From the NCBI RefSeq assembly GCF_024339125.1, contig NZ_CP101417.1:4785001-4849000 (forward strand): a stretch of DNA of 64,000 nt, written 5' to 3'. The notes under the pieces are model-generated. The model saw nothing but the letters and a program-made list of their open reading frames with translations. It did not search any database and was not told the origin of the DNA. A program made the translations under genes and the position numbers. Shown in pieces: positions 9,924 through 30,072 of the stretch. The DNA is from Xanthomonas hortorum (lineage in GTDB: Bacteria > Pseudomonadota > Gammaproteobacteria > Xanthomonadales > Xanthomonadaceae). Every line of letters starts with the position of its first letter. Position 1 is the first letter of the stretch.

Positions 9924-11294
9924 TTACACCATCTGCAGATTCAACGACCGTCCTTGCTGGATCGGGGCATTGGCCGGCAATGCATCGCCGAACAGATCGT
10001 GCTCATCGCTGTCGGTGATCTCCACATCGACCAGGTCGCCGATCTTCAACTTGAGCTCGCCGCCGTTCTGGATATGCACCAGGCCGTCGATTTCCGGCGC
10101 GTCCGCGCGCGAACGGGCCACGGCGATATCGTCTTCAATCAGGTCGACCAGGCATTGCTGCACGCTGCCGATCTTGGCTTCCAGCCGCGCGGCGGAAATC
10201 TCTGCCTGCTTGGCCATGAAACGCGCCAGCCGCTCCTGCTTGAGCTCTTCCGGCACCGGATCCGGCAATGCGTTGGCGCTGGCCCCTTCCACTGGCGAAT
10301 ACGCGAACGCACCGACTCGATCGAGCTGGGCCTGATCCAGGAAGTCGAGCAGGGATTCGAACTCGGCATCGGTCTCGCCGGGGAAGCCGACGATAAAGGT
10401 CGAGCGTACGGTGATCTCGGGGCACATCGCCTTCCAGCGCTGCACGCGCTCCAAGGTCTTTTCCACCGCACCGGGCCGCTTCATCAGCTTGAGGATGCGC
10501 GGGCTGGCGTGCTGGAACGGGATGTCCAGGTACGGCAGCAGCTTGCCTTCGGCCATCAGCGGAATCACATCGTCCACGTGCGGGTACGGATAGACGTAAT
10601 GCAGGCGCGTCCACACGCCCAGCTCCGACAAACCTTCGCACAATGCCTTCATGCGGGTCTGGTACATGCGGTCGCGCCACGGGCGCTCGACGTACTTCAG
10701 ATCCACGCCATAGGCCGAGGTGTCCTGCGAGACCATCAGCAACTCCTTGACCCCGCCGCGCACCAGGCGCTCGGCTTCGCGCAGGACTTCATCGACCGGG
10801 CGCGAGGCCAGATCGCCGCGCATGGACGGAATGATGCAAAAGCTGCAACGGTGATTGCAGCCTTCGGAAATCTTCAAGTACGCGTAATGGCGCGGGGTCA
10901 GCTTGATGCCGTAGTCCGGCACCAGATCCACGAACGGGTCGTGGCGCGGCGGCAATGCCGCATGCACCGCTTCCATCACGCTTTGATAGTCCTGAGGGCC
11001 GGACACCGCCAGCACCTGCGGATAGGCCTCGCGGATCTGTTCCGGGCGCTTGCCCAGGCAGCCGGTGACGATCACCTTGCCGTTGGCGTTCATCGCCTCG
11101 CCGATCGCATCCAGCGACTCGGTTACTGCCGAATCGATGAAGCCGCAGGTGTTAACCACCACCACGTCGGCGGCGTCGTAACTGGGCACGATGTCGTAGC
11201 CCTCCACGCGCAGCTGGGTGAGGATGCGTTCGGAATCGACGAGCGCCTTCGGGCAGCCTAATGATATAAACCCTATACTTCTGCTATCCGACAC
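9924..11294 (-). CDS. rimO: Ribosomal protein S12 methylthiotransferase RimO, N-terminus re-made by the prophage
   Basis: A radical-SAM methylthiotransferase that modifies an Asp of ribosomal protein S12. The UPF0004 domain cysteines (about C14, C50, C79), the radical SAM cluster CNHRCSFC (C146, C150, C153) and a C-terminal TRAM domain are present, giving 456 aa. The prophage is inserted after the codons for the first ~16 residues. From GTG 11294 the phage side encodes [16 protein letters not shown], and the host side continues ALVDSERI. The displaced native start at 51182 encodes MSQLNPKVGFVSLGCPK. The GTG is preceded by AGGTG at a good distance. A TTG at 11327 is possible but less likely. 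The protein should be functional; its promoter has changed. Its start lies only 16 bp from the divergent integrase start. Confidence 0.93.
11248..11258. other. attL core (TTCGGGCAGCC)
   Basis: This 11-bp sequence occurs inside rimO at the left prophage boundary and again at 51133-51143. Left of it the sequence is host rimO; right of it the codon use changes sharply (ATA, TTA, TCA) and the integrase begins. The copy at the right end is flanked on its outer side by the missing native rimO start, which fixes the boundary. Confidence 0.93.
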
Positions 11295-11310
11295 GACGAC
11301 ACCTGGCGCT

Positions 11311-12972
11311 ATGGCTATAAAGGCCAAAGTTTACAGCTACTTGCGGTTTAGCGACCCGAAGCAGGCCGCCGGCAGCAGCGCTGATCGACAAATGGAATAT
11401 GCGAGGCGCTGGGCGGCCGAGCACAGCATGACGCTCGATTCCGAGTTGTCGATGCAAGACGCTGGACTGTCGGCATACCACCAGCGCCATGTAACACGTG
11501 GCGCCCTTGGCCTGTTCCTGCAGGCGATCGATGACAGGCGCATCCCCGCAGGGTCGGTGTTGGTGGTTGAAGGGCTAGACCGCCTCAGCCGCGCGGAGCC
11601 TATCCAGGCCCAAGCGCAACTCGCCCAGATCATCAACGCCGGCATCACCGTCGTGACCGCGAGCGACGGACGCGAGTACAACCGCGAAGGGCTCAAGGCC
11701 CAGCCCATGGATCTGGTGTACAGCCTCCTGATCATGATCCGTGCGCACGAGGAGTCCGATACAAAGAGCAAACGCGTGCGCGCAGCGATTCATCGGCAGT
11801 GCCAGGGCTGGATGGCCGGCACATGGCGAGGACTCGTGCGCAACGGCAAGGATCCGCATTGGCTTCGTCTGGTTGACCAGCACTTTGAAATTGCGCCTGA
11901 GCGCGGGGAAGCGGTGCGCATTGCAGTAAGGATGTTCCGCGAGGGACACGGTGCAGTGCGAATTATGCGAACCCTGACTGATATGGGGTTGCAGATCACA
12001 AACGGCGGCAACCCCTCGCAGCAGCTATACCGAATCGTGCGGAATAGAGCCTTGATTGGGGAAAAGGTGCTGGAGGTCGACGGGCAGGAATATCGTCTGG
12101 CGAACTACTACCCTGCCCTGCTTTCGCCTGCGGAGTTCGCCGACCTGCAGCACCTGACGGTGCAACGCTCACGCCGCAAGGGCACTGGTGAGATTCCAGG
12201 GCTCATCACTGGCATGCGGATTGCCTTCTGCGGCTACTGCGGAGCGGCGATGGTGGCTCAGAACTTGATGACGCGTGGTCGCCGGGAAGATGGACGCCCC
12301 CAAGATGGCCATCGGCGCTTGATCTGCGTCAGCAACTCCCAAGGAGGCGGCTGCCCCGTCGCCGGCAGCTGCAGCGTCGTCCCGATCGAGCACGCCCTGG
12401 TGACCTTCTGCGCCGACCAAATGAACCTGTCTAGGCTTCTAGACTTTGGGAATCGCGCAGACGGTATCGTCGGCCAGCTGACCGTTGCTCGTGTGCAGGT
12501 CTCGGATACCGCGACTCGGATAGATAAGATCACCGATGCCCTACTGGCTTCGGACGCCGGCCAGGCGCCGGCGGCATTCATGCGGCGCGCACGTGAGCTT
12601 GAGGCCGAGCTGGCAGAGCAGCAGAAGCGAGTAGAGGCGTTGGAGCACGAGTTGGCGGCCGTCGCCTTATCCCCAGAGCCAGCCGCCGCGAAGGCGTGGG
12701 CATGCCTCGTCGCAGGAGTCGAGGCACTCGACTATGACGCGCGCATCAAGGCCCGGCAGCTGGTCGCCGATACTTTCGACCGAATCGTAGTGTTCCATCG
12801 CGGCAGGAAGCCGGAACGTACGCGCTCGTGGAAAGGCACTATCGACCTGTTACTCATCGCGAAGCGCGGCGGCGCCCGACTGCTTCACATTGATCGTCAG
12901 ACCGGAGGTTGGCAGGCCGGCGAACAGATCGACACAACACAAATCCCGCTGCCCCCGAATATTGCGGACTGA
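11311..12972 (+). CDS. Large serine recombinase (phage integrase)
   Basis: A 553-aa protein. The N-terminal resolvase/invertase domain opens [20 protein letters not shown], with the nucleophile serine in FSDPKQ or SSADRQ and the helper motif [13 protein letters not shown] recombinase domain follows (about 185-300), then a zinc-ribbon region with FCGYCG and later Cys pairs ([16 protein letters not shown]). A long coiled-coil ([23 protein letters not shown]) completes the protein. This is the layout of phiC31/Bxb1-type integrases, which join short attP and attB sites directionally and need a directionality factor for excision. The ATG at 11311 was chosen because it lies just inside attL and homologues begin with a short lead to YSYxRFS. 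A -10-like TATACT is at 11274-11279. The gene is divergent from rimO. Confidence 0.95.
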
Positions 12973-12979
12973 AGCTTAG

Positions 12980-13204
12980 CTAGCGCGGCATCCGGGTGGC
13001 CACTTCAGCTCGGATCCTCGCCTCGTGCCGCGTGGCCCACATAACGGTGCCACGTCGCCCCTGATCGAAGCTACTGCAGTCGCGCTGGACAAAACGCGCG
13101 AAGGGCTCGCCGGGCGGCACCGGCCCCATCGCGCCCCGCCAAGGCCTGTCCCAGCGGAAGCCAGGCGGCAGCACAGGTTCATCGCCGGCATCGATCGCGC
13201 TCAT
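12980..13204 (-). CDS. Small phage protein of unknown function, coupled to its upstream neighbour
   Basis: A 74-aa protein from ATG 13204, convergent with the integrase (7 bp between stops). It contains PVLPPGFRWDRPWRGAMGP and a basic helical C-terminus (TRHEARIRAEVATRMPR). Its start overlaps the stop of the upstream small gene as ATGA, which is typical of translational coupling. No known domain is recognised. Such pairs beside an integrase gene may include a directionality factor, but nothing in the sequence proves that. Confidence 0.5.
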   Translation of the reverse strand: MSAIDAGDEPVLPPGFRWDRPWRGAMGPVPPGEPFARFVQRDCSSFDQGRRGTVMWATRHEARIRAEVATRMPR

Positions 13205-13374
13205 GCAGCAGTAACCGACATATATATGGTGTGCTGCTGACCACCGTGCTTGTTGGCCAACTGGCTTCCGCGCTCGAGCATGGCCACGGCCTGGTCTACC
13301 ACCCACCAGCGCTTCCCGCCCGCCGCGTCGACGGGATCGAGGTTTGCCTGCGGAGCATCGTGGGTCAGCGACAT
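13201..13374 (-). CDS. Small phage protein of unknown function
   Basis: A 57-aa protein from ATG 13374 (an in-frame start further up at 13434 is possible). The core KRWWVVDQAVAMLERGSQLANKHGGQ reads like one amphipathic helix followed by a short strand (HTIYMSVTA). It overlaps the downstream small gene by 4 bp. No Shine-Dalgarno is obvious. It faces the GGTAAT repeat array, which could carry its promoter and operators. Confidence 0.45.
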   Translation of the reverse strand: MSLTHDAPQANLDPVDAAGGKRWWVVDQAVAMLERGSQLANKHGGQQHTIYMSVTAA

Positions 13375-13458
13375 TGCGGGGAATCGGTCGTAGCGAGTGG
13401 TGTGGCAGCCCACTCTAGCGCGCTCCAATCTCAATTTTTCAGATGACCACGGGAAGGG

Positions 13459-13732
13459 GGTAATCTAGGTAATCCGCTTCCAGCAATGCACATATTTCCA
13501 TATTTATCAATTACTTATTAGAAAATATCAAAGGTAATTAAAGGGTAATTGAGAGGTAATGGGATTACCTTTTGGGGAGGTAATCCCATTCCCAAAAAAT
13601 ATCCTTCAATTTCAATCACATAACTTTTCCATGGGGTGCCGATTACCTTAAATCACCCCAAAAGGTAATCCCGAATTTCCCATTGACATCAGTCCCTTAG
13701 ACCCTGTTTCGGCTCGCGGATTACCGATTACC
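13459..13732. repeat. Iteron-like array: 11 copies of GGTAAT/ATTACC
   Basis: The hexamer GGTAAT starts at 13459, 13468, 13533, 13544, 13555, 13579 and 13664 on the plus strand. Its complement ATTACC occurs within GATTACC at 13563, 13641, 13719 and 13726. Most copies read GGTAATC or GGTAATT, and several sit in facing pairs (13555/13563, 13641/13664). The stretch is visibly AT-richer than the phage around it and has no long reading frame. It looks like a multi-site protein-binding region: replication origin, partition site or operator cluster. Confidence 0.7.
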
Positions 13733-14170
13733 TGGTTCCGATGGTCATTTGACGAAACGCACCGGGAGGCCTGGCCACGGAACGCGGCCGCGCCCCGCCC
13801 GCAGAGTCCTCGGGCGCGCAGGGATCTGCAGGGAAGAGAGGCCCCCTTGAATCCCACGGATCGGTAGCAGCAGCGCGGCCCAGGCCTACCCCGCAGGGGT
13901 GCAGCGAAAACCATGCATGAAGACCGCAGGCGTGGCGGGGCGACGATTGCGCGCGCCAGGGGCAGCACCATTTGCAGACGTCGGAGTTTTCCTACTGCGC
14001 CCGCTGTAGAAGCCGGGCAACATGAGGGCCTAGGGCCGGAGCGCCATCACGCCGGGGTGCCGTTGGACGGCCGCATTGAGCTTGGGCGTGGCTCAACACG
14101 GTAGGTGCAGGGTCCTACCTGACCGCGCTTCAAGCGGTGCCCGATGGATGAGAGAATTGAGGCCATGAAT
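13733..14170. other. GC-rich stretch without a convincing gene
   Basis: After the GGTAAT array the composition swings back to GC-rich. Short frames exist on both strands, but none has a good ribosome site or family resemblance. The segment presumably carries the promoter for the gene at 14171. A short palindrome GTAGGTGCAGGGTCCTAC lies at 14101-14118. Confidence 0.5.
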
Positions 14171-14815
14171 ATGAACGAAGCCAGAAAAGTCGCAGGGAGC
14201 AGGCCTCAGAAAGGCGAGTTCTACACCCTCGGTCCTGACATGCGTGGAAGCCAAGGCCACGGCGTAGTGTTCGAGAACAAAGCAGACTTCCCTCTGCCCA
14301 CACATTTAAGCCTTGAGCAATCAAGTAGCGGAATTAAAGGCTTTAGAGATATACCTCGCTTGCGCCAGGGTCAGCCGGATCAAATGGTCAATGATCTCGA
14401 CTCAAGTTTTCGAGGTTACTGGCTCGTATCCGACCCATTGAAAAAGCTTTTCGAGTCAATTGACTCAGAAGCGTTTTCCTTTGCGAAATGTGAATTCACT
14501 CTTTATGACGGATCGCAGGCCGCGCCACATTATTTCTGCGAGGTCGTTAGGGAGATTGATGCGCTTGACGAAGAAGCATCCACAGTCAAAATCCTAACCG
14601 AGGGCTACCCTAAAGGTAAGCACTATAGTTTGGTTGGGGGAGCCAGCCTCGCCTTTAGAAAAGAAGTTCTAGGCGCTACCCATGTCTTCCGGACACCCTA
14701 TAACGGCGGGCTTGTTATCTGTGATCGCTTGTTTCGAGACGCACTGATCGAACACGGATTTGGGAAGGGACGCAATTCGCGCGGCGTCTGGCTGAGCGAC
14801 GCTGCAGACTGTTAA
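14171..14815 (+). CDS. Imm11/DUF1629-like protein (putative immunity protein)
   Basis: A 214-aa protein with the course of the Imm11 (DUF1629) family: an N-terminal FYTLGPD strand, PLPTHLSLEQ, then a DxxxS.RGYWLVSDPLKKLFESID segment. Next come APHYFCEVVREIDALD and, near the end, HVFRTPYNGGLVICDRLFRDALIEHGFG. This family occurs as immunity proteins beside polymorphic toxins. I chose ATG 14171 because TGAGG lies 8 nt upstream; ATGs at 14144 and 14165 are alternatives. It is 38 bp upstream of the large nuclease-like gene, in the same direction. Base composition is AT-richer than the phage structural genes, which suggests separate acquisition. Confidence 0.72.
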   Translation: MNEARKVAGSRPQKGEFYTLGPDMRGSQGHGVVFENKADFPLPTHLSLEQSSSGIKGFRDIPRLRQGQPDQMVNDLDSSFRGYWLVSDPLKKLFESIDSEAFSFAKCEFTLYDGSQAAPHYFCEVVREIDALDEEASTVKILTEGYPKGKHYSLVGGASLAFRKEVLGATHVFRTPYNGGLVICDRLFRDALIEHGFGKGRNSRGVWLSDAADC

Positions 14816-14853
14816 GTCAATCGACTTTATACGCACCTTAAGGATCGAGGGAC

Positions 14854-17800
14854 ATGCCTGCCAACAGTGTCATCCTGCAAAGCCACCACGTTATTGAGCA
14901 GAGCCTTATACAACGACACCCTCTATTGGTGGAGTTGGTCAACCATGGACTGATTGACGAGCATACTTCGGTAAACCGCCTTTATTTGCCTGTGGACGGA
15001 AAGCTAGCTGAGGCTATTGAAACTTCGCCGCACCGAGGAAGGACACGCAGCTCATATACACGGGGTATCGTCGAAACGCTAAACAGCATCTCCGACACAA
15101 GTGATGGCTTAGCTGCACTCGATGGCGATCCAATAGCATTACAGAAAGTCGCCACTCAGGTCACCGAACTGCAAGACACCCTCAAGGTTGCTTTGATCAA
15201 CGGCGATGTCTTCACGACCACGCCGGATCGACTGACCAAGGTCGAGGCCAACGCGCAGAACCAGAGAACATTTTCCGATCTCAAGCAGTACAGCGCAGAG
15301 CATGCGGGACAGTTAAAAGCCTTGCGTTCGATGAGTGAGGTGGAATCCGAATGGGCCGCCATCACCCACTCGGAGCATCGGATTAGCGCGGTGATCGGCG
15401 CCGCAAAGGATACCTCGTCCAATCTAGTCGCAGCCCCAGGCGACCCGGTTGTCCGCGAGATCGCTGGGCGCGAGGAGTTCCGCTTGGCGATCGCCCACGC
15501 AGAACAGGCCGGCCGTGTGACGTTATCGCGGTCCAATGCGGCGTTGGTCCAGGAAGTGCTGGATGACACGCCGTCAAACATCGGCGGTGCTGCTCGCAGC
15601 ATTCGCCAAGTAGCAGGCGCCGCACCCCAGCCATACACCCCGCTGTCGCAGCGCGGCTTCGCCACTGCCGAGCTGCTCGCAGGCGACCTGTCGGCAGGCC
15701 AGGCACTGCGCGGCGCCGGCCTGCTCGCTACCGCTGCCGATACCGTCGTCACCGGTCAACGCGCCACACGCTTCCTCGGCCAGGACAACCCGCTCGCCGC
15801 GCAATCGGAGCTGGCGCATTTCGCCGGCCGCAATGTCGGTGGCTGGGCAGGCGGTACCGCTGCCGCCTACGCACTGGGTAGCTCGGGCGCCGGGCCGATG
15901 GTGCTGATCGCAGCCGATGCCTACTTCATGACCAAGGCTGGCGAGAAGGCTGCTGAGTTGCTCGACAACCGCGCCATCTACCAACAGACCGATCGCGACG
16001 GGACGCACTGGTCCTTCGATGGCCGCGCCTGGGCGCGCGAGGGAATAGCCGACACCACCCGCGACGGAGTGAACAACCCCACCTCCACGCCGATCGTTGC
16101 CAGTTACGAGAAGGCCCGCGAGCTCAACTACCAGGCCACCAATACCGCCGCAGCGTTGGCCCTCAAAGATGCGCCGGCGCCCGCTGATCCGTATCGCCAG
16201 CCTGCCAACGCCACAGACCGGCCAAGTCTGAGCACTGCCGACTGGCGGCGTGACGCATCGGACGGCCATTGGCATCGCCAGGTCAAGACCGAGATTTCCG
16301 GCGCCAACGATCGCGGCAGCTACGTACAGGAAACCGCCTTGCCGCCCCGCGCGGCTGAACTGGACGCGCAGGCCCAGGACATCATCGCGCGCAACATCGC
16401 CAACAGTCCGGGCGCGATCGCCGCGCGCTATGAGCTGGCACATCACCGCAGCGGCTGGGCCGCCGACGGGCTGCCGATGTCGCCAGCAGTGCTGCAGGCG
16501 TTGCCCGACCCGGATGCGTTGACCGCCTCGAACGGCCAGCACTACTACCGCGACATCGAGGGCCGATGGACCACCAACGGTGACCCGCCCGATGGCAATC
16601 GCGTGCTGGAACTGGACACCACGCGCGCGATGCTGCAGCCGGCGCTTGCCGAACAGACCCAGGCGATCGCTGCCATCCAGCAATCGCCGCAGGAGCTGCA
16701 GGGCGAGCAGACGCTGTACCGCTACCGCATCGTCGGAACGGAGTTGCAGCCGCAATGGCGCGAAGCGATCGAACTGGCGACCCAGCGCACCCGCGAGGCA
16801 GAGGGGCTTGCCGGCGATGGCGCGATGCAGTTGCAGCGCGGGCCGGGCGGTCAGTTCGGCGCCGATAGCCCGATTGCCCATCTGCAACGCGGCCCCGATG
16901 GTGTAGAGCGTGTTGCAGCGCTCACCAGCACCGAGGACATCCGCCAAGCGCTGCAGGAGGTGCAGGCGCGGCAGCAGCCCGGCGCCCCCACACAACAGCT
17001 GGCCTCTATGTCGCGCCCAACCGACGGATCGGCAGATAGCGACACCTCTAGCTCCAACGCATCCTCCAGCCCACAACTGGTGATGGATATGCAGGTGCGA
17101 ATGCAGGCAGCCAGCGCTGCCCAGGCGCGTCAAGAACGCGATCAGCAGGAACGCCAGACGCAAGACCAGCAGCTGGCCCAGGCACGCGCACACGCGCTGC
17201 AGGAGCAAACCTCACAGGAGGATCGGGCGCAGTCCTCTCAAGCGCTGCAGGCGCATGCATTGCAGGAGCTTCGCCAGCAAGAGTCGCAACAGCTGGAGCA
17301 GCAAGAACGCCAGGCACAGGATGCCCAGCAACGCGAACAGGCGCAGCGCCAAGTACACGACACCCAACAGCGCGAACAGTCGCAACAACAAGCCCAGGAG
17401 ACGCAACAGCGCGAGCAGGAAACACGCCAAGCCCAGGATGCCCAGCAGAGCCAGCAAGAACGTCTCCAGGCGCAGGATGTGCAACATCCAGAGCAACCGC
17501 CTCTGCAAGCCCAAGCGGCTCCACAACGCGAGCAGGAGCCGGCGAAGGACGGCGTCTTGCGCGAGCCGCCGCTCCATACTCAAGGCACATCGCCGCGTGA
17601 ACCCGAGCAACGGTCTACCCAGGATGACGTCGCCCAACAGCCCCAGAAGCAGCAGGCAGAGCATGGGCAAGCACATGCAACCGACGTAGCGCAGCAGCGG
17701 ATGCAAGGCCAACAAGCGCAGGAAGAGCGCTCGCACGAAGCCCCGCAACAGACAGCGCAGAGCGCGGCGATCGCGCCGACATCGCCGGCAGATCTGCAGC

Positions 17801-18840
17801 AGGTTGCGGACTTGCACAGCCGCGAGCAGCCGACCACGGCGCAAGCCTCGGATGCGCACCACGATGCGTCTGCGCACCAGCGTGAGGCGGTGCACGCGGA
17901 CCTGGCCCAGGTAGCGAATCCGCCTACCGCGCCACCACTCGCCACACCGGTTGCCGCAGAACGCAGCGACGACCAACTGGCGCGGATGCCGCAGGCACCA
18001 GCACAGGAAGCACCAGATACCCCTGCAGCGTTGCCATTGTCCGGCCACCTCGTGCAAGCGGCAGGGCCATCGCTGGACATGCCGGCCGCTGGCCGCTCCA
18101 CCGACACGGCCGGAGCGCGCCAGCCGCTTTCTGTGCCCCAGGCAGATGAGCAGGATTCTTCTGCCATCGCTGTACTCGCAGATCCGGACTCTTGGGAGGA
18201 AATAACGCGCTCCATGCGAGAGCTGCGCATCCAGATCGAACAGGATCTGGAAACAGAAACCCGCGTCGCAGAAGCACGGCAGGCGCGTATGGAGCGTGGT
18301 GAGCAGCCGTTTACCGAGTTGGAACTTCGTGATGGGTACGATCCGAATGGCCCCTCTGCGATGAGACAACCGGGGCTCGCACCGACACGCGCTGCGCCGC
18401 AACGCGATGCCGATAGCACTGTTGTGCAAACGGCTGGCGAGCAGGACGATCGGGCACCGCCTACGCGCAAGAACATCACCGGCGATCCCGATGTGGATGA
18501 TCTGCTGTACGCCCTCGATTCCAAGAACGATCTTGCGATCGAACAGGCATTGAGCCGGGTCGCCAACAGCGCGCATAGCAATGCCCTTGCACAGCAGGGC
18601 CACGAACATCTTGAAGCCAAGGCGCAGCAGGAAGCACAGGAGCAGGTGACTGCACGCCAGGCGCTGGGCATGGACGTCTCGACAGAGGTCCAGACCAGCC
18701 GTGGCCCGGTGATGGTAATGACGCTGCCGCAGTTCGCCAACAATCCCGCAATGCAAAGCGGGCCACAGGGTGACGGCGGTGGTGGCGGAGACGGCGGTGG
18801 GGGTGGAGGTGCTGGTGGCGGTGGTGGTGGCGGCGGATAG
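14854..18840 (+). CDS. 1328-aa protein with N-terminal AHH-type (HNH/Endo VII) nuclease signature and Gln-rich tail
   Basis: The first ~75 residues carry an AHH-like nuclease pattern: SHH (H11, H12), VSVNRLYLP-type loop (N41 to P46), then SPHRGRTRSSY (H60 R61 G62 Y68). A region of about 150 helical residues follows, then a Gly/Ala-rich hydrophobic segment (about 290-375, e.g. GGTAAAYALGSSGAGPMVLIAADAY) that could insert in a membrane. Two repeats around a WxxDG(R/H) motif follow (TDRDGTHWSFDGRAW; DWRRDASDGHWHRQ). A strongly Gln/Ala/Glu-rich, probably coiled-coil stretch spans about 745-930, and the protein ends in a poly-Gly tail. A GGATCGAGGG ribosome site precedes ATG 14854. The nuclease at the N-terminus is unusual, since polymorphic toxins normally carry it at the C-terminus. 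No XVIPCD type IV secretion signal is seen. A toxin role is inferred from the nuclease and the adjacent Imm11-like gene only. Confidence 0.7.
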   Translation: MPANSVILQSHHVIEQSLIQRHPLLVELVNHGLIDEHTSVNRLYLPVDGKLAEAIETSPHRGRTRSSYTRGIVETLNSISDTSDGLAALDGDPIALQKVATQVTELQDTLKVALINGDVFTTTPDRLTKVEANAQNQRTFSDLKQYSAEHAGQLKALRSMSEVESEWAAITHSEHRISAVIGAAKDTSSNLVAAPGDPVVREIAGREEFRLAIAHAEQAGRVTLSRSNAALVQEVLDDTPSNIGGAARSIRQVAGAAPQPYTPLSQRGFATAELLAGDLSAGQALRGAGLLATAADTVVTGQRATRFLGQDNPLAAQSELAHFAGRNVGGWAGGTAAAYALGSSGAGPMVLIAADAYFMTKAGEKAAELLDNRAIYQQTDRDGTHWSFDGRAWAREGIADTTRDGVNNPTSTPIVASYEKARELNYQATNTAAALALKDAPAPADPYRQPANATDRPSLSTADWRRDASDGHWHRQVKTEISGANDRGSYVQETALPPRAAELDAQAQDIIARNIANSPGAIAARYELAHHRSGWAADGLPMSPAVLQALPDPDALTASNGQHYYRDIEGRWTTNGDPPDGNRVLELDTTRAMLQPALAEQTQAIAAIQQSPQELQGEQTLYRYRIVGTELQPQWREAIELATQRTREAEGLAGDGAMQLQRGPGGQFGADSPIAHLQRGPDGVERVAALTSTEDIRQALQEVQARQQPGAPTQQLASMSRPTDGSADSDTSSSNASSSPQLVMDMQVRMQAASAAQARQERDQQERQTQDQQLAQARAHALQEQTSQEDRAQSSQALQAHALQELRQQESQQLEQQERQAQDAQQREQAQRQVHDTQQREQSQQQAQETQQREQETRQAQDAQQSQQERLQAQDVQHPEQPPLQAQAAPQREQEPAKDGVLREPPLHTQGTSPREPEQRSTQDDVAQQPQKQQAEHGQAHATDVAQQRMQGQQAQEERSHEAPQQTAQSAAIAPTSPADLQQVADLHSREQPTTAQASDAHHDASAHQREAVHADLAQVANPPTAPPLATPVAAERSDDQLARMPQAPAQEAPDTPAALPLSGHLVQAAGPSLDMPAAGRSTDTAGARQPLSVPQADEQDSSAIAVLADPDSWEEITRSMRELRIQIEQDLETETRVAEARQARMERGEQPFTELELRDGYDPNGPSAMRQPGLAPTRAAPQRDADSTVVQTAGEQDDRAPPTRKNITGDPDVDDLLYALDSKNDLAIEQALSRVANSAHSNALAQQGHEHLEAKAQQEAQEQVTARQALGMDVSTEVQTSRGPVMVMTLPQFANNPAMQSGPQGDGGGGGDGGGGGGAGGGGGGGG

Positions 18841-18880
18841 CCGGAACACGTGCAGCGAGTCGAATCATCAAGAGAACACT

Positions 18881-19516
18881 ATGGACATGCAGAACACCTC
18901 AGAGCTGCCCGATGCCAACGAGTCGGAACGCGCAATGAAAGAATCGATCAAGGCGATGGCAGCGGTGATCGGGGCGCTGCAGCGGCGAGAGCATGCACTG
19001 GAAGATCTAGTCCGGGAGCAGCTGCAGCTGCTTCAGATCGCGGTCAAAAACGCCGATCAGCGCGTCAATCGTGTGGTTGAGAACGCACTTCCCCGGCTGA
19101 CGCAATTGAGCAATCAGGCGCTGACGCAGACGCTGGAACCGGTGGCCGAGCGATTCAACAAGAAGATGGCAAATGCAGAGCAGGCGGTCCAGCAGGCCAC
19201 TCAGCGCTATACACAGGCACAGCACTCCCTGGAAACAACGACAACGCGGCGCATGTGGATCGCGTCACTTGCCCTGCTGGTGTCAGGCGTCATGAGTGTG
19301 ATCGTCGCAGGCTACGCGCTTTACAGCACGAAGGAGGCTATGACAGAGGCGGCACAGCGCCGGGCTGAAATCGCATTTCTGGATCGTCTCGCACGTGCCA
19401 ACCTCGTTGCCTGTGGCAAAGACAGGCTGTGCGCCGAGATCGACAAGAAAGGACCGCGCTATGGCGATGGCGGTCAATATCGTCTCATCACCTTGCGCAA
19501 TGCCGCGACGCGCTGA
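18881..19516 (+). CDS. Coiled-coil protein with one membrane segment
   Basis: A 211-aa protein starting 40 bp after the nuclease-like gene, with AAGAGA before the ATG. Residues 15-135 are a long helix of heptad character (RREHALEDLVREQLQLLQIAVKNADQR, then ANAEQAVQQATQRYTQAQ). One membrane segment (WIASLALLVSGVMSVIVAGYALY, about 148-170) and a short soluble C-terminus with two cysteines follow. No family is recognised. Shared direction and close spacing suggest co-expression with the nuclease-like gene, perhaps as a membrane partner. Confidence 0.7.
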   Translation: MDMQNTSELPDANESERAMKESIKAMAAVIGALQRREHALEDLVREQLQLLQIAVKNADQRVNRVVENALPRLTQLSNQALTQTLEPVAERFNKKMANAEQAVQQATQRYTQAQHSLETTTTRRMWIASLALLVSGVMSVIVAGYALYSTKEAMTEAAQRRAEIAFLDRLARANLVACGKDRLCAEIDKKGPRYGDGGQYRLITLRNAATR

Positions 19517-19588
19517 GCGACATAAGACCTACAACCATCACAACCCTTGTCACTAATGAGCTAGCCACGAAATCAGACGGATGAATCT

Positions 19589-20203
19589 ATGAGCGAACCT
19601 TTAACAATAGGCGTAATCGCGGCAGTCGCGTCGCTTGCAGGATCACTTGCCGGCGCAAGCATTCCCACCACACTCTCGTGGTGGCTTCATCGGCAACAGA
19701 AAAACGCGGACGTTGGGTACCTAGCTGTGACAGTTGGGGCGATCCTTGATCGATACATTGGCGGTTGTATTGATGTCATGTATGACGACGGCGTCTTTGA
19801 CGCTGACGGGCAATTAGTCGCAAGAGTTTCGTCACCCAAGTTGGAGCTTGGATCCTTAGACGTGAACTGGCGCTCCATTCCCGTCACGTTATTAGATCGC
19901 GTTTTTGCCATCCCAAATGCTCAGCTGTTGGTGCAAGATCGACTTGCCTGGGAGGCCGATTTCGATGATTATCCGATCCTCGTGCGACAAATCGAGTATG
20001 GAACCTTGGCCGAAACGGCCTTGCGCGTGGTCAATGCACTGCGAGAGCATGCACGACTACCGGTTAGCCCTGAAGGTCGGCTTGACTACTCAGGAATGAT
20101 TGCAAAACACATGCCCAAGCTAGTCGAGAAGCAACAAAAGATTGAGCAGCAGCAGTGGACTCCGATATTTCAGCAGAACGAAGCCGCCCCGGAGGGCGGC
20201 TAA
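19589..20203 (+). CDS. Membrane-anchored protein of unknown function
   Basis: A 204-aa protein with one N-terminal membrane segment (about 7-30, GVIAAVASLAGSLAGASIPTTLSWWL). A soluble domain rich in acidic and aromatic residues follows, with no motif I recognise. The gene closes the accessory block and ends in a hairpin that overlaps its last codons. It reads as a single-pass protein with a cytosolic domain. Confidence 0.65.
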   Translation: MSEPLTIGVIAAVASLAGSLAGASIPTTLSWWLHRQQKNADVGYLAVTVGAILDRYIGGCIDVMYDDGVFDADGQLVARVSSPKLELGSLDVNWRSIPVTLLDRVFAIPNAQLLVQDRLAWEADFDDYPILVRQIEYGTLAETALRVVNALREHARLPVSPEGRLDYSGMIAKHMPKLVEKQQKIEQQQWTPIFQQNEAAPEGG

Positions 20204-20222
20204 ATAATCATTACGATTTTTT
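20183..20222 (+). terminator. Rho-independent terminator closing the cargo block
   Basis: GCCGCCC-CGGA-GGGCGGC (20183-20200) is followed at a short distance by a T-run (20217-20222). The stem overlaps the final codons of the upstream gene. It separates the plus-strand cargo from the minus-strand methyltransferase. Confidence 0.7.
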
Positions 20223-20229
20223 GTAGTGC

Positions 20230-20940
20230 TTACATCTGAGAAATTCGGTTATTGGTGACCTCAGCATAGTGCTCAGTCTTCTCCACGCCGGTCCAGCAAT
20301 AGCCTTCCAGCTCAGCAGCCACCAACGTAGTGCCGCTGCCAGCAAACGGATCGAGCACGCGCCCACCCGTCTCGCAGATTCGTACCAGCTGCCGCATCAA
20401 CTCGGTGGGCTTACCGGTCAGGTGATGCTTGTCGGCCTTACGCACCGACTCACGGATGACACCCGGCAACACCGGCGCACGGCGATCCAACGGCATGTTG
20501 CCCTTGCTGCCCCACACGATGTATTCGGCTTGATTGCGGAAGCGCCCCAGTTGCGGCCGCACGCCCTCGGTCTTGTCCCAGACAGTGATGCCGCGCCAGG
20601 TGAAGCCGGCGATCTGGAGCGCGTCGGTGGTTAGCGGCAGCTGCCGCCAGTCGGTGAACAGCAGCACCGGCGCACCGTCCTTGAGCACGCGCGCGCACTC
20701 GGACAACCACAGGTGCATCCACTTCAGGTGCGAGCGTTGGTCGCGCTCGTCGCCAACAAAGTCGGCATGCAGTTGCGCGCCACCGCCCTGGACGTACTTC
20801 TGCGATGGCGGCTTGGCCCGTGCCGCAGCAGTGAGACCGCCGCTGGCATACGGCGGATCAGTGATCAGCGCGTCGAACGAATTGGCTTCGAGCGTGGGCA
20901 GGATGGTCAGGGCGTCGCCCTGTAGGAGCTGGTTTTTCAT
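20230..20940 (-). CDS. Phage DNA methyltransferase (beta-class, N6-adenine or N4-cytosine)
   Basis: A 236-aa enzyme with the catalytic motif IV DPPY (residues 28-31) before the AdoMet-binding motif I DPFAGSGTT (197-205), the beta-class order. TWRGITVWDK and NQAEYIVWGSKG are typical of phage-borne members. No restriction partner lies nearby, so it is a solitary enzyme likely to protect phage DNA. The start at 20940 lies inside the com-like gene (83-nt overlap in another frame), recalling the phage Mu com-mom arrangement. It is last in the minus-strand operon of packaging genes, so it should be made late. Confidence 0.9.
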   Translation of the reverse strand: MKNQLLQGDALTILPTLEANSFDALITDPPYASGGLTAAARAKPPSQKYVQGGGAQLHADFVGDERDQRSHLKWMHLWLSECARVLKDGAPVLLFTDWRQLPLTTDALQIAGFTWRGITVWDKTEGVRPQLGRFRNQAEYIVWGSKGNMPLDRRAPVLPGVIRESVRKADKHHLTGKPTELMRQLVRICETGGRVLDPFAGSGTTLVAAELEGYCWTGVEKTEHYAEVTNNRISQM

Positions 20941-21103
20941 GGTGAGAGCCTTCTTGGATTCGCTCGCGGCGATCGGAGGTGAGGCTCTCGGCCTTCAGGT
21001 GATTGAGCGTGCCGCAACGCGGGCACTTGATTTGGATTTCATCGAAGGCACCGGCCTTGCACAGCAGGCGGGCGCATTCACCACAACGGAGGTTCTTGAG
21101 CAT
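20858..21103 (-). CDS. Com-like zinc-finger regulator
   Basis: An 81-aa protein whose first 35 residues match phage Mu Com: LRCGECARLLCKAGAFDEIQ, then IKCPRCGTLN, with a zinc site made by C7, C10, C27 and C30. Mu Com binds the com-mom transcript and opens a hairpin that hides the mom ribosome site. Here the gene overlaps the start of a methyltransferase gene by 83 nt, so the same type of translational control is likely. The C-terminal half after residue 45 is read from the overlap and is probably unstructured. The ATG lies 25 bp after the portal gene. Confidence 0.88.
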   Translation of the reverse strand: MLKNLRCGECARLLCKAGAFDEIQIKCPRCGTLNHLKAESLTSDRRERIQEGSHHEKPAPTGRRPDHPAHARSQFVRRADH

Positions 21104-21128
21104 TGCGTGGTCTTGCGGTGGGAAAGGA

Positions 21129-22142
21129 TTACGCCGCCGCTGGCGGCGCGTAGGGGGTGAACGCGATCACCTCATCGCCCACCCAGTCATTGATCTTCAA
21201 CATGCGGGCCTGCAGAGGTTCCAGCTCGTTGGCGGCCCACACGGCAGCGGCCTCGCGGATCGACCCGAAACCGCCAGCGTTCTGCGGCACGATTCCCATG
21301 AGTTGCGGCGGGATCCGCAGCGCGGCCAGCATGTCGTCGCGGGTGATGCCCTTGATGCCGCTGAACTCGTCCTTGGCCGCCACCTCGCTGACCGGGATCA
21401 GCTTCAGGCCATCCTTGTTGCCGCCGGGCGAGTACAGGAACAGATTGCGGAAGTTGCCCGGCCCCTTGGCGCCCTTCATGGCGTTGCGTAGCGCATCGAC
21501 GTCTTCCTGGCTCTGCTGCGGGTCGGTCAGGTACAGGATGAAACCGGCGTGCGAGCCGTTGTTGTAGTACTTGCGGCGGAACAGCGTGGCCGACTCATTG
21601 AGCAGCGCGGACTGCATGGCCGGCATCCACTCGGGCAGGCCGTAGAGTTCTTGATCGACATCGGCTTCGCGCAGCTGGAACACGCTGCCCGGCTCGAACA
21701 CGTGTTCGTCGTGCCAAGTGCGCACTTGGAAGTACTCGCCCTCGGTGATGCCGCGCCGCATGTACTTGGACAGCGGCGCAGCCAGCGACAACGCACCGCC
21801 CATGCGGTTGCGCCGCCGCTCAAGGTAGCCATTGCCCAGGGTGATCCAGTCCAGCGACAGCTGCTCGAAGGCCTCGCGCGTGAGCAACCGGTGCGGCTTG
21901 AAGGTGCGCGCCAGCATATTGCGCTTGAAGATCAGCCCGGACTGCAGGAACGGATTGCTGCGCGTGGTCTTGGACAGACCATCCAGCGCCACGGGCGGCT
22001 CGTACCAACGCCCGTTCTGCCAGCACTCCAGATAGTCCAGCACGCCGCGCCCATCGAGCACCGGCGTCGGGTCACCAAAGGTGAACGCCTCGGTGCGTGC
22101 GGGCACTGCTGGCGCGGTGGCGGGCAGCTGGTCGGTCAACAT
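21129..22142 (-). CDS. Q: Phage portal protein (P2 gpQ type)
   Basis: A 337-aa portal protein of the P2/PBSX family: FGDPTPVLDGRGVLDYLECW at the N-terminus, NPFLQSGLIFKRNML, ERRRNRMG, HVFEPGSVFQLREADVDQELYGLPEWMPAMQS, FRRKYYNNGSHAGFILYL, and KDEFSGIKGITRDDMLAALRIPPQLMGI. Twelve copies form the ring at the head vertex through which DNA passes. The start ATG 22142 overlaps the terminase stop as TGATG, and GGAGATCTCTTG precedes it. It is part of the minus-strand P-Q-com-methyltransferase operon. Confidence 0.95.
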   Translation of the reverse strand: MLTDQLPATAPAVPARTEAFTFGDPTPVLDGRGVLDYLECWQNGRWYEPPVALDGLSKTTRSNPFLQSGLIFKRNMLARTFKPHRLLTREAFEQLSLDWITLGNGYLERRRNRMGGALSLAAPLSKYMRRGITEGEYFQVRTWHDEHVFEPGSVFQLREADVDQELYGLPEWMPAMQSALLNESATLFRRKYYNNGSHAGFILYLTDPQQSQEDVDALRNAMKGAKGPGNFRNLFLYSPGGNKDGLKLIPVSEVAAKDEFSGIKGITRDDMLAALRIPPQLMGIVPQNAGGFGSIREAAAVWAANELEPLQARMLKINDWVGDEVIAFTPYAPPAAA

Positions 22143-23905
22143 CAAGAGATCTCCATGAAGCCGGAATTGCGCGCGGTGCGCCCTTCCAGCGGTTCGTTCT
22201 GCAGCGCGTGGAACAGTGCCCACGCCAGGTCCGCGTGGCCGGTCTCTTCCGAGCGGCCAGCGGTGAAGGTGGATTGCCGGCCGCTGGCCGTCATGGTCTT
22301 GCGGATGGCCATCAACGACTGCGCCACGTCGGTCCAGCCGGCGTCGAACTCCAGTCGCCCGTTGTGGATCACATCGAACGCCTTGAGCACCAGGCGCGTC
22401 TTGACCTCGGGCGAGTAGCTGAAGGTGACCAGATTCGGGAAGAACTGCTTCACCAGCTGCGCCACGCCGCTGCCCATGCCGGTGGTGTCGATGCCGATGT
22501 AGGTCACCCAGTACCGGCGCGTGATGCGCTCGATCTCGGCGGCCTGCTTGGCAAAGTCCATGCCCCGGAACTGGATGCGCTCCAGCAGCCGGAACTTGCC
22601 GCCAGGCTGCTGCGGTGGCGCCAGCACGACCAGGCCGGCGGTGTCGCCCGTCTCGGCCGGGTCATAGCCGATCCACACCGCGCGATCGCCGTAGGGGCGC
22701 GCGGCGAACGGTTTGTAGTCCTGGCCCCACTCGACCCAGCTGTCGACCATGCACGGCTGCAGCATCGCCAGCGGGAAGATGCTGGCACCGTCGTCGACGA
22801 ACTCGCACATCAACAGGTTGGCGAACGCGTCCGGGCTGTATTCCTCGCGCAGCTCGTCGATGTCGAACAGGTCGCAGCCACGGCGCTGAGCGTCGAGGAT
22901 GTTGACGATCTGCCGCCACGCCCGGTCCTGGCAACGGCGCCCGCCGGCCAGCGCATCGTGCGAGACATCGATCTGGATCCGCTGCGCGGCGGGCTTGCCC
23001 TTGTTGCGGCGCTCGCCGGTCCAGAATGTGTAGGCCTCATGGGCCATGCTCGACGGCGTGCTGAAGTAGGTCTTGCGCCACTTCTTGTGCATCGCCATGC
23101 CGCTGGCGACCTTGTTCAACTCGTTGAAGCCGTAGGTCCAGAAGAATTCGTCGAAGTAGAAATTGCCGTGGTAGCCCTGCGCGGTGCGCGCATTGGTGCC
23201 CAGGAAGAACAGTTCGGCGCCGTTGGGGAACACGATGCTGTCGCCGCCGGACAGCGTCTCGTCGATCGTCTCGCGCACGAACTGCTGCATGTAGCCGCGA
23301 AACAGATGCGCCTGCGCCTTGGACGCACTGAGAAAGATCTGATTGCGTCCGGTGGTGAGCGCATCGATCAGCGCCTCGCGGGCGAAGTAGAACGTTGCAC
23401 CGATCTGGCGCGATTTAAGGATGATGCGGGTGCGCTCGTTGCTGGCCCGGTACCAGTCGCGCTGGTAATCGAAGCAGCCGTCGATGAACGCGGTGGTCAG
23501 CTGCTCGACCTGTTCCTCAGTGAAATCGTTGCGCTTGGGCTTCTTCTTCGGCGCGGCGTTGCGGTTCGCCACAGCGGGATTTAAGTCGGCCTCGTTGCCG
23601 CCGCTCTGATAGCGCTGGATGCGCGCCTGGCGCTCCAGCTGCCGATGCAGCAGATCGATTTCTTTGAAGTCGCCGCCGGACTTTTCCGGCTTCATGATCA
23701 GCACAACCAAGCGCGCTTCCAGTGCACCACCGATGCGCTCAACGTTGTCTGCGCGATCCCACTCGTCACGCGACTTCCAGCTGTGTACAGTCTTCTCGTT
23801 CTCGCCGATGGCCTGCGCAATTTCGGTCACGCGCCATCCCATCCAGTACAGGAACTTGGCCTGTCTGCGGGTATCCATCGGGAGCTGGGTGGCAACGCTT
23901 TGCAT
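22142..23905 (-). CDS. P: Terminase large subunit, ATPase (P2 gpP type)
   Basis: A 587-aa protein. The N-terminus MDTRRQAKFLYWMGWRVTEIAQAIGENEKTVHSWKSRDEW is the gpP-type helix-turn-helix. The motor domain has an adenine-binding and Walker A-like segment ILKSRQIGATF (about 161-172), a Walker B region NFYFDEFFW, and the nuclease-fold acidic motif GYDPAETGD later. It pumps DNA into the capsid. I prefer ATG 23905 over the upstream GTG at 23926, because P2 gpP has the same short lead before its RRQ motif. It is divergent from the scaffold gene O, as in P2. Confidence 0.95.
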   Translation of the reverse strand: MQSVATQLPMDTRRQAKFLYWMGWRVTEIAQAIGENEKTVHSWKSRDEWDRADNVERIGGALEARLVVLIMKPEKSGGDFKEIDLLHRQLERQARIQRYQSGGNEADLNPAVANRNAAPKKKPKRNDFTEEQVEQLTTAFIDGCFDYQRDWYRASNERTRIILKSRQIGATFYFAREALIDALTTGRNQIFLSASKAQAHLFRGYMQQFVRETIDETLSGGDSIVFPNGAELFFLGTNARTAQGYHGNFYFDEFFWTYGFNELNKVASGMAMHKKWRKTYFSTPSSMAHEAYTFWTGERRNKGKPAAQRIQIDVSHDALAGGRRCQDRAWRQIVNILDAQRRGCDLFDIDELREEYSPDAFANLLMCEFVDDGASIFPLAMLQPCMVDSWVEWGQDYKPFAARPYGDRAVWIGYDPAETGDTAGLVVLAPPQQPGGKFRLLERIQFRGMDFAKQAAEIERITRRYWVTYIGIDTTGMGSGVAQLVKQFFPNLVTFSYSPEVKTRLVLKAFDVIHNGRLEFDAGWTDVAQSLMAIRKTMTASGRQSTFTAGRSEETGHADLAWALFHALQNEPLEGRTARNSGFMEIS

Positions 23906-24047
23906 GCCGACCAGGGTGCAGCCCACCTCTTAATCCCGACAGTTCAACGACGCGTAATCGCCTTGTTTACACGGTGATTGCGTTGCTGCGTTGTGCCTCG
24001 CGTTTGACCATGGGTCATCGCAAACGCATCCAGCGCAGAGGACACCC

Positions 24048-24890
24048 ATGTCGGGCAAGACCAAGAAGTTCCGTTCCAACTGGTTCCGTGTAGCCGTCGA
24101 AGGTGCCACCACCGATGGCCGCACAATTCAGCGCAGCTGGATCGACGACATGGCCGCGACCTACAACCGCGAGACCTACAACGCCCGCATCTGGATCGAG
24201 CACATGCGCAGCCTGCTGCCGGACTCGCCGTTCCGTGCGTATGGCGATGTCACCGCGGTCAAGGCGGAAGAGGTGGAGATCGATGGTGCCAAGCGTCTCG
24301 CGTTGTTTGCCCAGATCGAGCCGACCGCCGACCTGATCACCATCAACAAGTCCAAGCAGAAGCTCTACACCAGCATCGAAGTGCAGGAGAAGTTCGCCAA
24401 CACCGGCAAGGCGTATCTGGTCGGCCTGGCCGTGACCGATTCGCCGGCCAGCCTGGGCACCTCCATGCTCAGCTTCGCCAGCCAGAACCCCGACGCCAAC
24501 CCGCTGGCCGATCGCAAGCAGTCACCAGGCAACCTGTTCACCGTCGCCGAGGAAACCGCGCTGGAATTTAGCGAGGTCAGCGAAGGTCCGGTCGCCAACC
24601 TGCTCAGCCGGATCCGCACCGCGCTCAAGAGCGAGGACGCCACCAGCATCACCGCCGAGCAGTTCGCAGAGCTTGGCGAAGGCGTCGAAGAGATCGCCGA
24701 GCACGTGCGCGGCCAGGACGAACGCTTCAACCGCCTGCAGGCCGAACACGCCGAGCAGAAGACCAAGCACGAACAGCTGGCAAACGACCTGGCGCAGCTG
24801 CGCGAGTCGCTGTCGCAACAGCCGGACCCTGCACAGCCCGCACGCCCGGTGGTCACTGGCGGCGGCGCGGCCGTGCTGACCGACTGCTGA
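24048..24890 (+). CDS. O: Capsid scaffolding protein/protease (P2 gpO type)
   Basis: A 280-aa protein from ATG 24048 with AGAGGA upstream. The N-terminal domain (KFRSNWFRVAVEGATTDGRTIQRSWIDDMAATYN, IEHMRSLLPDSPFRAYGDVTAV) is the gpO serine-protease part. SPASLGTSMLSFA carries a likely catalytic Ser. The C-terminal part is a long acidic helix (VEEIAEHVRGQDERFNRLQAEHAEQKTKHEQL) that acts as scaffold. It guides assembly of the major capsid protein and is then cleaved. Confidence 0.95.
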   Translation: MSGKTKKFRSNWFRVAVEGATTDGRTIQRSWIDDMAATYNRETYNARIWIEHMRSLLPDSPFRAYGDVTAVKAEEVEIDGAKRLALFAQIEPTADLITINKSKQKLYTSIEVQEKFANTGKAYLVGLAVTDSPASLGTSMLSFASQNPDANPLADRKQSPGNLFTVAEETALEFSEVSEGPVANLLSRIRTALKSEDATSITAEQFAELGEGVEEIAEHVRGQDERFNRLQAEHAEQKTKHEQLANDLAQLRESLSQQPDPAQPARPVVTGGGAAVLTDC

Positions 24891-24942
24891 TCCCACACCA
24901 CCACACGCACACGCAGCCAGCGCCACACCCTTCGGAGCCACC

Positions 24943-25959
24943 ATGCAAAACGCCACCCGCCTGCAGTTCAATCAGTTCGCCGATCAGATCGCCAAGCTCA
25001 ACGGCATCACCTCCGCCTTCCATTCCTTCGCTGTCGATCCGACCGTGCAGCAGAAGCTGGAAACGCGCATGCAGGAATCCAGCGAGTTCCTGTCCAAGAT
25101 CAACATCATCCCGGTGGACGAATTGTCCGGCCAGAAAGTTGGCATTGGCGTCACCGGCAGCATTGCCAGCCGCACCGACACCGGCGCCGGCAAGACCCGC
25201 ACCCCGCGCAACGTGGCCGCGCTCGACAAGAACGAATACGTCGCCAAGAAGACCGACTTCGACACCGCCATTCCGTATGCGCTGCTCGATGCGTGGGCCA
25301 AATTCCCGGACTTCCAGGCGCGCTTGCGCGATGCCATCGTCAAGCGCCAGGCGCTGGACCGTCTGCAGATCGGCTTCAACGGCACCCATGCCGCTGCCGA
25401 CACCGACCGCGCTGCGTTCCCGCTGCTGGAGGACGTCAACATCGGTTGGATGCAGCAGTACCGCACCAACGCTGCCCAGCGCGTGCTGGCGAGCGGCAAG
25501 ACGGCTGGCAAGATGGTCATCGGCGCCGGCGATGGCGCGGACTACCGCAACCTCGATGCGCTGGTGTTCGATGTAGTGAGCAACCTGCTGGATCCGTGGC
25601 ACCGCAAGGATCCGAGCCTGGTGGTGGTGCTCGGTCGCGATCTGATGCACGACAAGTATTTCCCGATGGTCAACAAGGACCAGGCGGCCAGCGAGAAGAT
25701 CGCCACCGACCTGATCTTGAGCCAGCGCCGCGTCGGCGGCCTGCAGGTGGCCGAGGTGCCCTACCTGCCGGACGGCGCGCTGATGGTCACCTCGCTGGCG
25801 AACCTGTCGATCTACTACCAGACCGGCGGCCGTCGCCGTTACATCCAGGAAGTACCCGCACGCGATCGCATCGAGAACTACGAGTCCTCCAACGATGCCT
25901 ACGTGGTCGAGGACTACGGCCTGGGCTGCGTGGTCGAGCACATCGAGATCGAGGCCTAA
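24943..25959 (+). CDS. N: Major capsid protein (P2 gpN type)
   Basis: A 338-aa capsid protein of the P2 family: TRLQFNQFADQIAKLNGI at the N-terminus, INIIPVDELSGQKVGIGVTGSIASRTDT, YVAKKTDFDTAIPYALLDAWAKFPDF, RQALDRLQIGFNGTHAA, DPSLVVVLGRDLMHDKYFPMVN and a C-terminal YVVEDYGLGCVVEHIEIE. It forms the icosahedral shell with the HK97 fold. A GGAG ribosome site lies 7 nt before the ATG. It follows O by 52 bp. Confidence 0.96.
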   Translation: MQNATRLQFNQFADQIAKLNGITSAFHSFAVDPTVQQKLETRMQESSEFLSKINIIPVDELSGQKVGIGVTGSIASRTDTGAGKTRTPRNVAALDKNEYVAKKTDFDTAIPYALLDAWAKFPDFQARLRDAIVKRQALDRLQIGFNGTHAAADTDRAAFPLLEDVNIGWMQQYRTNAAQRVLASGKTAGKMVIGAGDGADYRNLDALVFDVVSNLLDPWHRKDPSLVVVLGRDLMHDKYFPMVNKDQAASEKIATDLILSQRRVGGLQVAEVPYLPDGALMVTSLANLSIYYQTGGRRRYIQEVPARDRIENYESSNDAYVVEDYGLGCVVEHIEIEA

Positions 25960-25962
25960 ACC

Positions 25963-26682: not shown

Positions 26683-26780
26683 CCGAGCGTCCCCGCAACC
26701 CTCGCCGGCTCGGGGCTGATCCACAGCACTCCATCGCTGCGGTGACGCCCCGACCACCGGCGATCTCTTCCGAGCCATCC

Positions 26781-27248
26781 ATGAGCGGATTCACTGCCAC
26801 CGGCACCACCAGCGCCACGCCCGATGCGATCGCCAATGCGCCGTTCTGGCCGGCGATCGCACCGGGTGCCGTGCGCGCGAGCATGCGCCTGGATGGCACC
26901 GTGACCGATGCGCGTCTGCGCCACGCCATCGTGGCCGCAATGCTCGCGGTGAACGATGAGTTGCAGACCTGGGCGCAGACGCAGCAGGCGGCCGGCTACG
27001 CGGCGTTGGCCGATGTGCCCAGCACAACGGTCGACGGCATCTCGCGCCGCGTGCAGCTGTACCTGCGCGCCGTCGCGTGTGCCACCGCCGTCGAGGTGGC
27101 AGAGCGTTACCGCAGCTTCGATGCGACCGACAGCGCCAACCAGCGCGCCGATGACTTGTCACCCAGCATCACCGAGCTACGCCGCGACCAGCGCTGGGCC
27201 GTGCGTGACCTGCAGAACCTGCCGCGAAGCACGGTGGAGCTCATCTGA
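26781..27248 (+). CDS. L: Head completion protein (P2 gpL type)
   Basis: A 155-aa protein starting at ATG 26781. FWPAIAPGAVRASMRLDGTVTDARLRHAIVAAMLAVNDEL and YLRAVACATAVEVAERYRSFDAT match gpL, which closes the portal vertex after packaging. The upstream in-frame ATG at 26742 would add 13 residues not found in relatives. It overlaps X by one base (TGATG). Confidence 0.93.
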   Translation: MSGFTATGTTSATPDAIANAPFWPAIAPGAVRASMRLDGTVTDARLRHAIVAAMLAVNDELQTWAQTQQAAGYAALADVPSTTVDGISRRVQLYLRAVACATAVEVAERYRSFDATDSANQRADDLSPSITELRRDQRWAVRDLQNLPRSTVELI

Positions 27249-27457: not shown

Positions 27458-27461
27458 TCTG

Positions 27462-30065: not shown

Positions 30066-30072
30066 GGGCTTA

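Follow-up and report, generated by a model that had tools for sequence, protein, structure and literature searches.

A phage attachment site that probably doubles as the start of rimO in a Xanthomonas lysogen and in related serine-recombinase phages

The prophage described here is inserted in the 5' end of the gene rimO, and the gene is nevertheless open from a start codon carried by the phage. The question raised by this locus is whether the short coding sequence provided by the phage is kept for the peptide which it encodes or results from the recognition of DNA by the integrase. Very probably, as judged from the comparison of the sequences, the attP arm of the phage replaces the rimO head, and the lysogens have been selected to keep the encoded peptide for a usable RimO.

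The lysogen and its two rimO heads

The window, i.e., the whole stretch of 64,000 nucleotides that was analysed (positions 4785001-4849000), belongs to a single-contig genome of 5.44 Mb of the genus Xanthomonas. The tail sheath, baseplate J-like and minor tail (tape-measure-like) genes are found between 11 and 51 kb, and, by its Resolvase and Recombinase domains, the product of the divergent gene is a large serine recombinase (LSR) (Table 1). The core repeats and the reading of the frame place the prophage in the 5' end of rimO, which accounts for one of the only two UPF0004 matches in the whole genome. The 11-bp core occurs in exactly two copies within the window, both on the minus strand, with 0.07 copies expected by chance. 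The same-genus match of the LSR was found at G360:C1:452152-453810, in the contig NZ_JZEF01000001.1 of X. arboricola CFBP 2528.

Table 1. Coordinates of the prophage, its attachment sites and the rimO parts in the window
Feature	Position	Strand	Description
Prophage	11248..51143		about 39.9 kb; tail sheath, baseplate J-like and minor tail/tape-measure-like genes (from domains and core repeats)
Large serine recombinase (LSR) gene	11311..12972	+	Resolvase and Recombinase domains and a weak zinc ribbon; oriented divergently from rimO
Chimeric rimO of the lysogen	9924..11294	-	456 aa; first codons, with the GTG start, from the phage and the rest from the host; UPF0004, Radical_SAM, TRAM_2
attL core GGCTGCCCGAA	11248..11258	-	one of two copies; its TG (11255-11254) probably marks the crossover
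attR core GGCTGCCCGAA	51133..51143	-	second of two copies
Phage-encoded RimO N-terminus up to the core	11259..11294	-	GTG start at 11294, V(M) first, 11 further residues
AGGTG, possible ribosome site	11300..11304	-	5 nt upstream of the GTG
GTATA	11274..11278	-	overlaps the S-I codons; has a counterpart on the other attP arm, equally far from the centre
GTTTA	51116..51120	+	counterpart of GTATA in the second attP arm, on the phage side of attR
Stranded native rimO head	51111..51182	-	ATG, MSQLNPKVGFVSLGCPKVSSSKL, stop in phage DNA

The native rimO head, starting with the ATG at 51182 and encoding MSQLNPKVGFVSLGCPK, is stranded at attR beside the host upstream sequence, where it would give a peptide of 23 aa, with the stop in phage DNA after VSSSKL. 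At attL, the phage head and the shared GCPK are read in frame through the rest of rimO (456 aa in total), and an in-frame TTG at 11327 is the second possible start of the chimeric gene. Thus, the first-pass annotation, which had described the native start and a phage GTG head joined in frame to rimO, was confirmed in this part, along with the 11 bp of common DNA at attL and attR and the AGGTG supplied by the phage. It had also claimed that GF(I/V)SLGCPK is kept by divergent codons, and for the 18 bases before the core this holds: they are identical in phage and host at 7/18 positions and encode IGFISL and VGFVSL, respectively. However, the first UPF0004 cysteine, which was counted in that claim, is encoded within the shared core and, therefore, does not illustrate a protein kept while its DNA diverges. 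With random codons for the same peptide, the mean identity is 10.3 (sd 1.6), and 2.8% of the draws are as low as 7/18. The BLOSUM62 score of the phage peptide against the native one is 26, the native self-score being 28; a score of 26 against VGFVSL was reached by none of the 79,734 other prophage 18-mers on both strands, by which a chance likeness of the phage head to RimO was ruled out.

The empty sites were compared within the genus: 34 other genomes were matched, and the loci were read for 29 of them (L135-L163). The native head at an empty site was found in 27 of these 29 Xanthomonas regions, as MSQLNPKVGFVSL in 26 and MSQLNHKVGFVSL in one, with the change of P to H as the sole leader difference; the 21 bases before the core are identical in DNA across all the 27 sites. 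Outside this count are L152, which was unparsed, and L157, where a second Xanthomonas lysogen has its attR. Seven genomes were also fetched in search of an attR; one was obtained for each of G1000, G1310 and G981, while none was found within the stretch taken from G085, G291, G1177 and G895. Accordingly, the phage and host heads were comparable in five genomes (the window's, G360, G1000, G1310 and G981), with 7, 7, 9, 11 and 8 of the 18 bases identical, respectively; the host head is KVGFVSL in all five and the phage head follows the pattern [SR]IG[FLIM][VI]SL.

Start codons and synonymous change in the arms of related phages

The relatives were gathered by integrase alone, at the E limits of 1e-30 to 1e-90, from overlapping draws at several ranks (family, 395 genomes; class, 369; genus, 35; order of the beta-proteobacterial hit, 399; family of the Dyella hit, 197), from the scans of genome contigs (5 loci) and viral contigs (14 loci, the second viral-contig scan being represented by the best 80 of 214), and from named phage records, of which 18 matched and the 4 covering at least 80% of the query were used, the other 14 being at 25-31% identity. 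Plasmid records (19 matched, best identity 38%) were left out of the analysis, and the class-level draw of 369 genomes at E 1e-90 held no relative except the window. After the loci had been dereplicated by identity over 1 kb of integrase, 58 with at least 70 bases upstream of this gene remained, 53 of them of at least 40% identity. The host RimO flank was judged from the residues downstream of the core only, and the test is, therefore, blind to the arm; such a flank lies beside the phage arm in 30 of the 58 distinct loci, the window included. The 53 loci comprise 30 RimO-flanked ones, 8 with a RimO-like attP, 6 at a repeat, and 9 without an assigned site; among the latter, L092, L108 and L117 are relatives of the LPPA36 group (Pseudomonas phage) with less than 1.1 kb upstream, too short to reach a distant site, and the remaining six are L029 of Bcep176, L119, L121, L123, L124 and L128.

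An in-frame phage-borne start with no stop was found in all the 30 RimO-flanked loci (27 ATG and 3 GTG); the search for other rimO prophages, with comparison of the codons left of the core, had been proposed by the first-pass annotation, and it gave an attL without a start in 0/30. The whole RimO frame (438-468 aa) is held in 12 of these loci, and in the other 18 it is open to the locus end. In modest contrast, the second attP arm, unconnected with the rimO body, runs into a stop no more than 14 codons from the core in 9/9 sites. Shine-Dalgarno-like words of at least 4 bases precede 14 of 27 phage starts, versus about 20% of random positions in the window's prophage, and the other 13 starts have no such word longer than 3 bases; this count covers 27 RimO-flanked loci, with L004, L118 and L130 left out. 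The scan of both strands at 11200-11700 for promoters of the sigma-70 type alone gave no match. This result, together with the severing of the native promoter from the gene, would agree with a regulatory lysogeny, in which the insertion lowers or switches off rimO and the excision switches it on, but the in-frame starts at every attL make such a role exceedingly improbable; disruption or an on/off switch was, therefore, rejected as the main reading, though the expression of rimO may be weaker. In two rimO-flanked elements, L125 with L129 (G981) and L132 (G1177), the integrases are broken (two frames; one TAG), and the rimO start and frame are intact.

Among the 20 distinct arms, Ser is present in all and is encoded by five codons (TCG, TCA, TCC, TCT and AGC), and so is Leu (TTA, TTG, CTA, CTC and CTT). 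The pairwise comparison of the Ser-Leu codons gave 281 synonymous and 0 non-synonymous differences, the ratios in the other two reading frames being 29:253 and 33:246; these counts are not independent, because the loci are related by descent. The joint p of the column shuffle for Ser and Leu is 0.0002, the floor of the method, as the observed value was reached in 0/5000 shuffles. The F/M column is also codon-linked (shuffle p 0.0002), the V/I column shows no codon linkage in the 20 arms (p 0.73), and the S/R, I/V and G columns (p 1) are unsuited to this method. The DNA of I-G is nearly fixed across the arms, which may reflect the integrase binding.

A quick integrase tree was used for 38 arms, i.e., the 30 RimO-flanked ones and 8 without host RimO (JC1, Rb1, LPPA36, L052, L083, L087, L103 and L116) that were picked by eye as RimO-like, five of the eight being viral contigs, whose status as free phages is not proven. 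This tree requires no fewer than 15 changes of the Leu codon, none of which alters the amino acid, and 13 of the Ser codon, one of which does (to Ala in L083 and L087); for the F/M/I/L codon, 9 codon and 9 amino-acid changes were counted, and for the V/I/T codon, 11 and 10, respectively. The arm of L083 and L087, contigs without a RimO flank, reads SISFIALGCP and may correspond to another host RimO head or another target. The in-frame starts at 30/30 RimO-flanked loci and the synonymous-only change of Ser-Leu in them are what selection for a usable RimO would be expected to produce.

Six sister LSR loci, four of the Dyella type and two in G1282 (L011-L013, L028, L131 and L133), sit in a multi-copy repeat, with 8, 12 and 46 copies at no more than 3 mismatches in the three genomes examined. 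The repeat (GGTTACTTT..TTTGGGC) ends like the rimO core, and the sister recombinases may have exchanged a single-gene target for a repeat; the site of L013, the only locus checked for genes, lies beyond the end of an upstream 449-aa gene. The Dyella-type arms read S-L-Y-(W/G)-I-S-(F/C)-GCP, with Leu lost and Ser kept in the RimO register in all four, and both G1282 arms read S-I-Y-R-T-S-F in the same register. As a control, the sister loci are set apart by Leu and the hydrophobic residues, whereas Ser does not separate them and the start does not do so cleanly. The arm may also be regarded as the relic of a once-captured piece of host rimO, on which selection has ended: the tree indicates a common descent of arm and integrase within the family, and the Dyella-type sisters retain S....S.GCP elsewhere than at rimO, three of the four having no stop and an in-frame GTG. 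However, all the six repeat sisters have Phe or Cys in place of Leu, the fourth Dyella-type arm has a stop and the two of G1282 encode no Cys in register, whereas 0 non-synonymous Ser/Leu differences have arisen at rimO down to 51% integrase identity to the window's copy; a mere relic is, hence, highly improbable, and selection on the encoded peptide is preferred.

The arm is farther from the integrase in the LPPA36 group, with an annotated gene between them in LPPA36 itself; the distance is 1.2-1.3 kb in L078, L081, L089, L097, L101 and L111, and 0.25 kb in L102 and L104. Being present though distant in this group, the arm is, therefore, not a by-product of the start region of the integrase gene. 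A RimO-type arm farther from the integrase was also found in L032. In L007 and L008, from the same bacterial family and with LSRs 29-31% identical, the recombinase genes adjoin the frame MLLVG.PGCGKTLLA.RLPGLLPEA, which we take to resemble the Mg-chelatase/ComM ATPase. A magnesium chelatase is a frequent LSR target according to a published work, in the main text of which rimO has 0 occurrences (PMC10083194).

Symmetry of attP, the likely crossover and the probable double use of the arm

The symmetry of attP was assessed in nine sites, of which eight were taken as found and that of the window was reconstructed by joining its halves. TG is the best dyad centre in eight of the nine, with one tie, and its margin in Rb1 is one base pair. 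The bases flanking TG differ on both sides between the attL and attR of G1000, and the only bases which L052 and L103 jointly have in common with the host core are GG and TG. The attR core of L157 is GGCTGGCCTAAA instead of GGCTGCCCGAA, the base after TG differing from the native one, which helps to place the crossover. From the dyad centres, the differing flanks of TG in G1000 and L157, and the bases of L052 and L103, TG is, therefore, taken as the most likely crossover, GG being the less likely candidate; the conserved Cys codon begins with this TG. The Cys of this codon aligns with the GCPK of RimO 4jc0. In RimO, this Cys holds an iron-sulfur cluster.

The rimO-side arm carries GTATA or GTGTA, which spans the S/R-I/V codons in 38/38 arms, and the other arm carries GTATA or GTTTA at an equal distance from the centre in 8/9 sites (GTTTG in Rb1); the G+C content of the arm is 24% vs 63% in the prophage. 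GTATA is probably the outer LSR half-site of the phage arm, and, because this is its simplest explanation, the constancy of S-I is not readable as protein selection. Both observations, the symmetry about TG and the motif over the S/R-I/V codons, would be accounted for if the RimO likeness as a whole were a by-product of DNA recognition by an integrase that binds both attP and attB. However, in the RimO-flanked loci the DNA of the Ser and Leu codons varies (e.g., AGC vs TCN) and their meaning never does, the window's phage and host differ at 11 of the 18 bases, and neither a start codon nor an open leader is demanded by DNA recognition. Pure integrase recognition is, thus, a very unlikely explanation of the whole arm; it was rejected for Ser-Leu because of the synonymous-only change and retained for GTATA. 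The selection for a working RimO, which the first-pass annotation had deduced from the protein-level conservation, is, accordingly, supported by the in-frame starts and by Ser-Leu, while the shared core and the probable integrase half-site account for the Cys and a part of S-I-G.

The preferred reading, in which lysogens keep the peptide for the sake of RimO, suggests the following course of events. The LSR would integrate the prophage into rimO at the native codons 14-17 (GCPK), where the strands are probably exchanged at the TG that opens the conserved Cys codon. The attP arm beside the integrase gene would serve as a coding cassette on the opposite strand, consisting of a start codon, a short leader and the residues up to Ser-Leu, so that the integration would exchange the native head for the phage head and leave rimO in frame. 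Selection on the lysogens would maintain the encoded peptide, and, as the symmetry suggests, the outer half-site GTATA and the core would be conserved as DNA for the sake of the integrase. For the lysogen, we infer that rimO is translated from the phage start into a working RimO, that a promoter exists on the phage side and that the lack of such a repair would carry a fitness cost.

Known systems and the meaning for temperate phages

The dusA-specific integrases are of the tyrosine type. The elements at dusA resemble the window's phage, which also supplies the start and N-terminus of its target, and differ from it by the target itself and by their own integrase family, the window's element having rimO as the target and the serine recombinase domains. 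In the works on the dusA islands and prophages, the 5' end of the gene is described as replaced by the coding sequence of the element, with a replacement beta strand proposed, and for IMEVchUSA3 at dusA a new promoter and a restored frame were reported with the use of a lacZ fusion (PMC4482086, PMC8409611).

The closest precedent is the Burkholderia phage JC1, which has a serine recombinase and integrates at the rimO 5' end; an ATG 15 bp upstream of its attP keeps rimO in frame, and the authors predict that RimO is likely functional (PMC9144972). The JC1 recombinase is 62% identical to the window's LSR over 99% of the query, and the window's element likewise lies inside the rimO 5' end with a phage-borne in-frame start. 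However, the JC1 account, in the part of the paper available, deals with one phage and contains no selection test, cross-phage codon comparison, attP symmetry or crossover codon (PMC9144972). The gene rimO is also the target of the Variovorax prophage J1_pp_2, which likewise has a serine recombinase there, and of the Acidithiobacillus rimO islands, though the available text of these reports makes no statement on the rimO frame or start (PMC9658991, PMC10322971). Thus, the restoration of a start at rimO by a phage is of a known kind, and the window's phage is a further case; the statement of the first-pass annotation that the restoration of a start and N-terminus by a serine-integrase phage is much less usual was too strong, because JC1 (PMC9144972) and the dusA cases (PMC4482086, PMC8409611) are already in print. 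The literature search, covering few subscription journals, revealed no family-wide selection test, no synonymous variation of the rimO attP arms and no crossover placed in a Cys codon. What appears to be new here is the family-wide signature of selection and the double-coded arm.

An entire family of LSR phages, represented here in Xanthomonadaceae, Rhodanobacteraceae, Burkholderiales and the LPPA36 group, is likely to possess such a double-coded attP arm, with an integrase half-site and the selected start and N-terminus of a host enzyme on the same bases and with the crossover in the codon of the invariant iron-sulfur Cys. A recombination site and a protein-coding start can, thus, occupy the same bases, which is useful for choosing serine integrases and landing sites. 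The synonymous-only change in a phage attachment site is a countable signature for the view that temperate phages are selected to spare a ribosome-modifying enzyme of the host. RimO is dispensable in the laboratory, and this signature makes its importance for the fitness of the lysogen testable.
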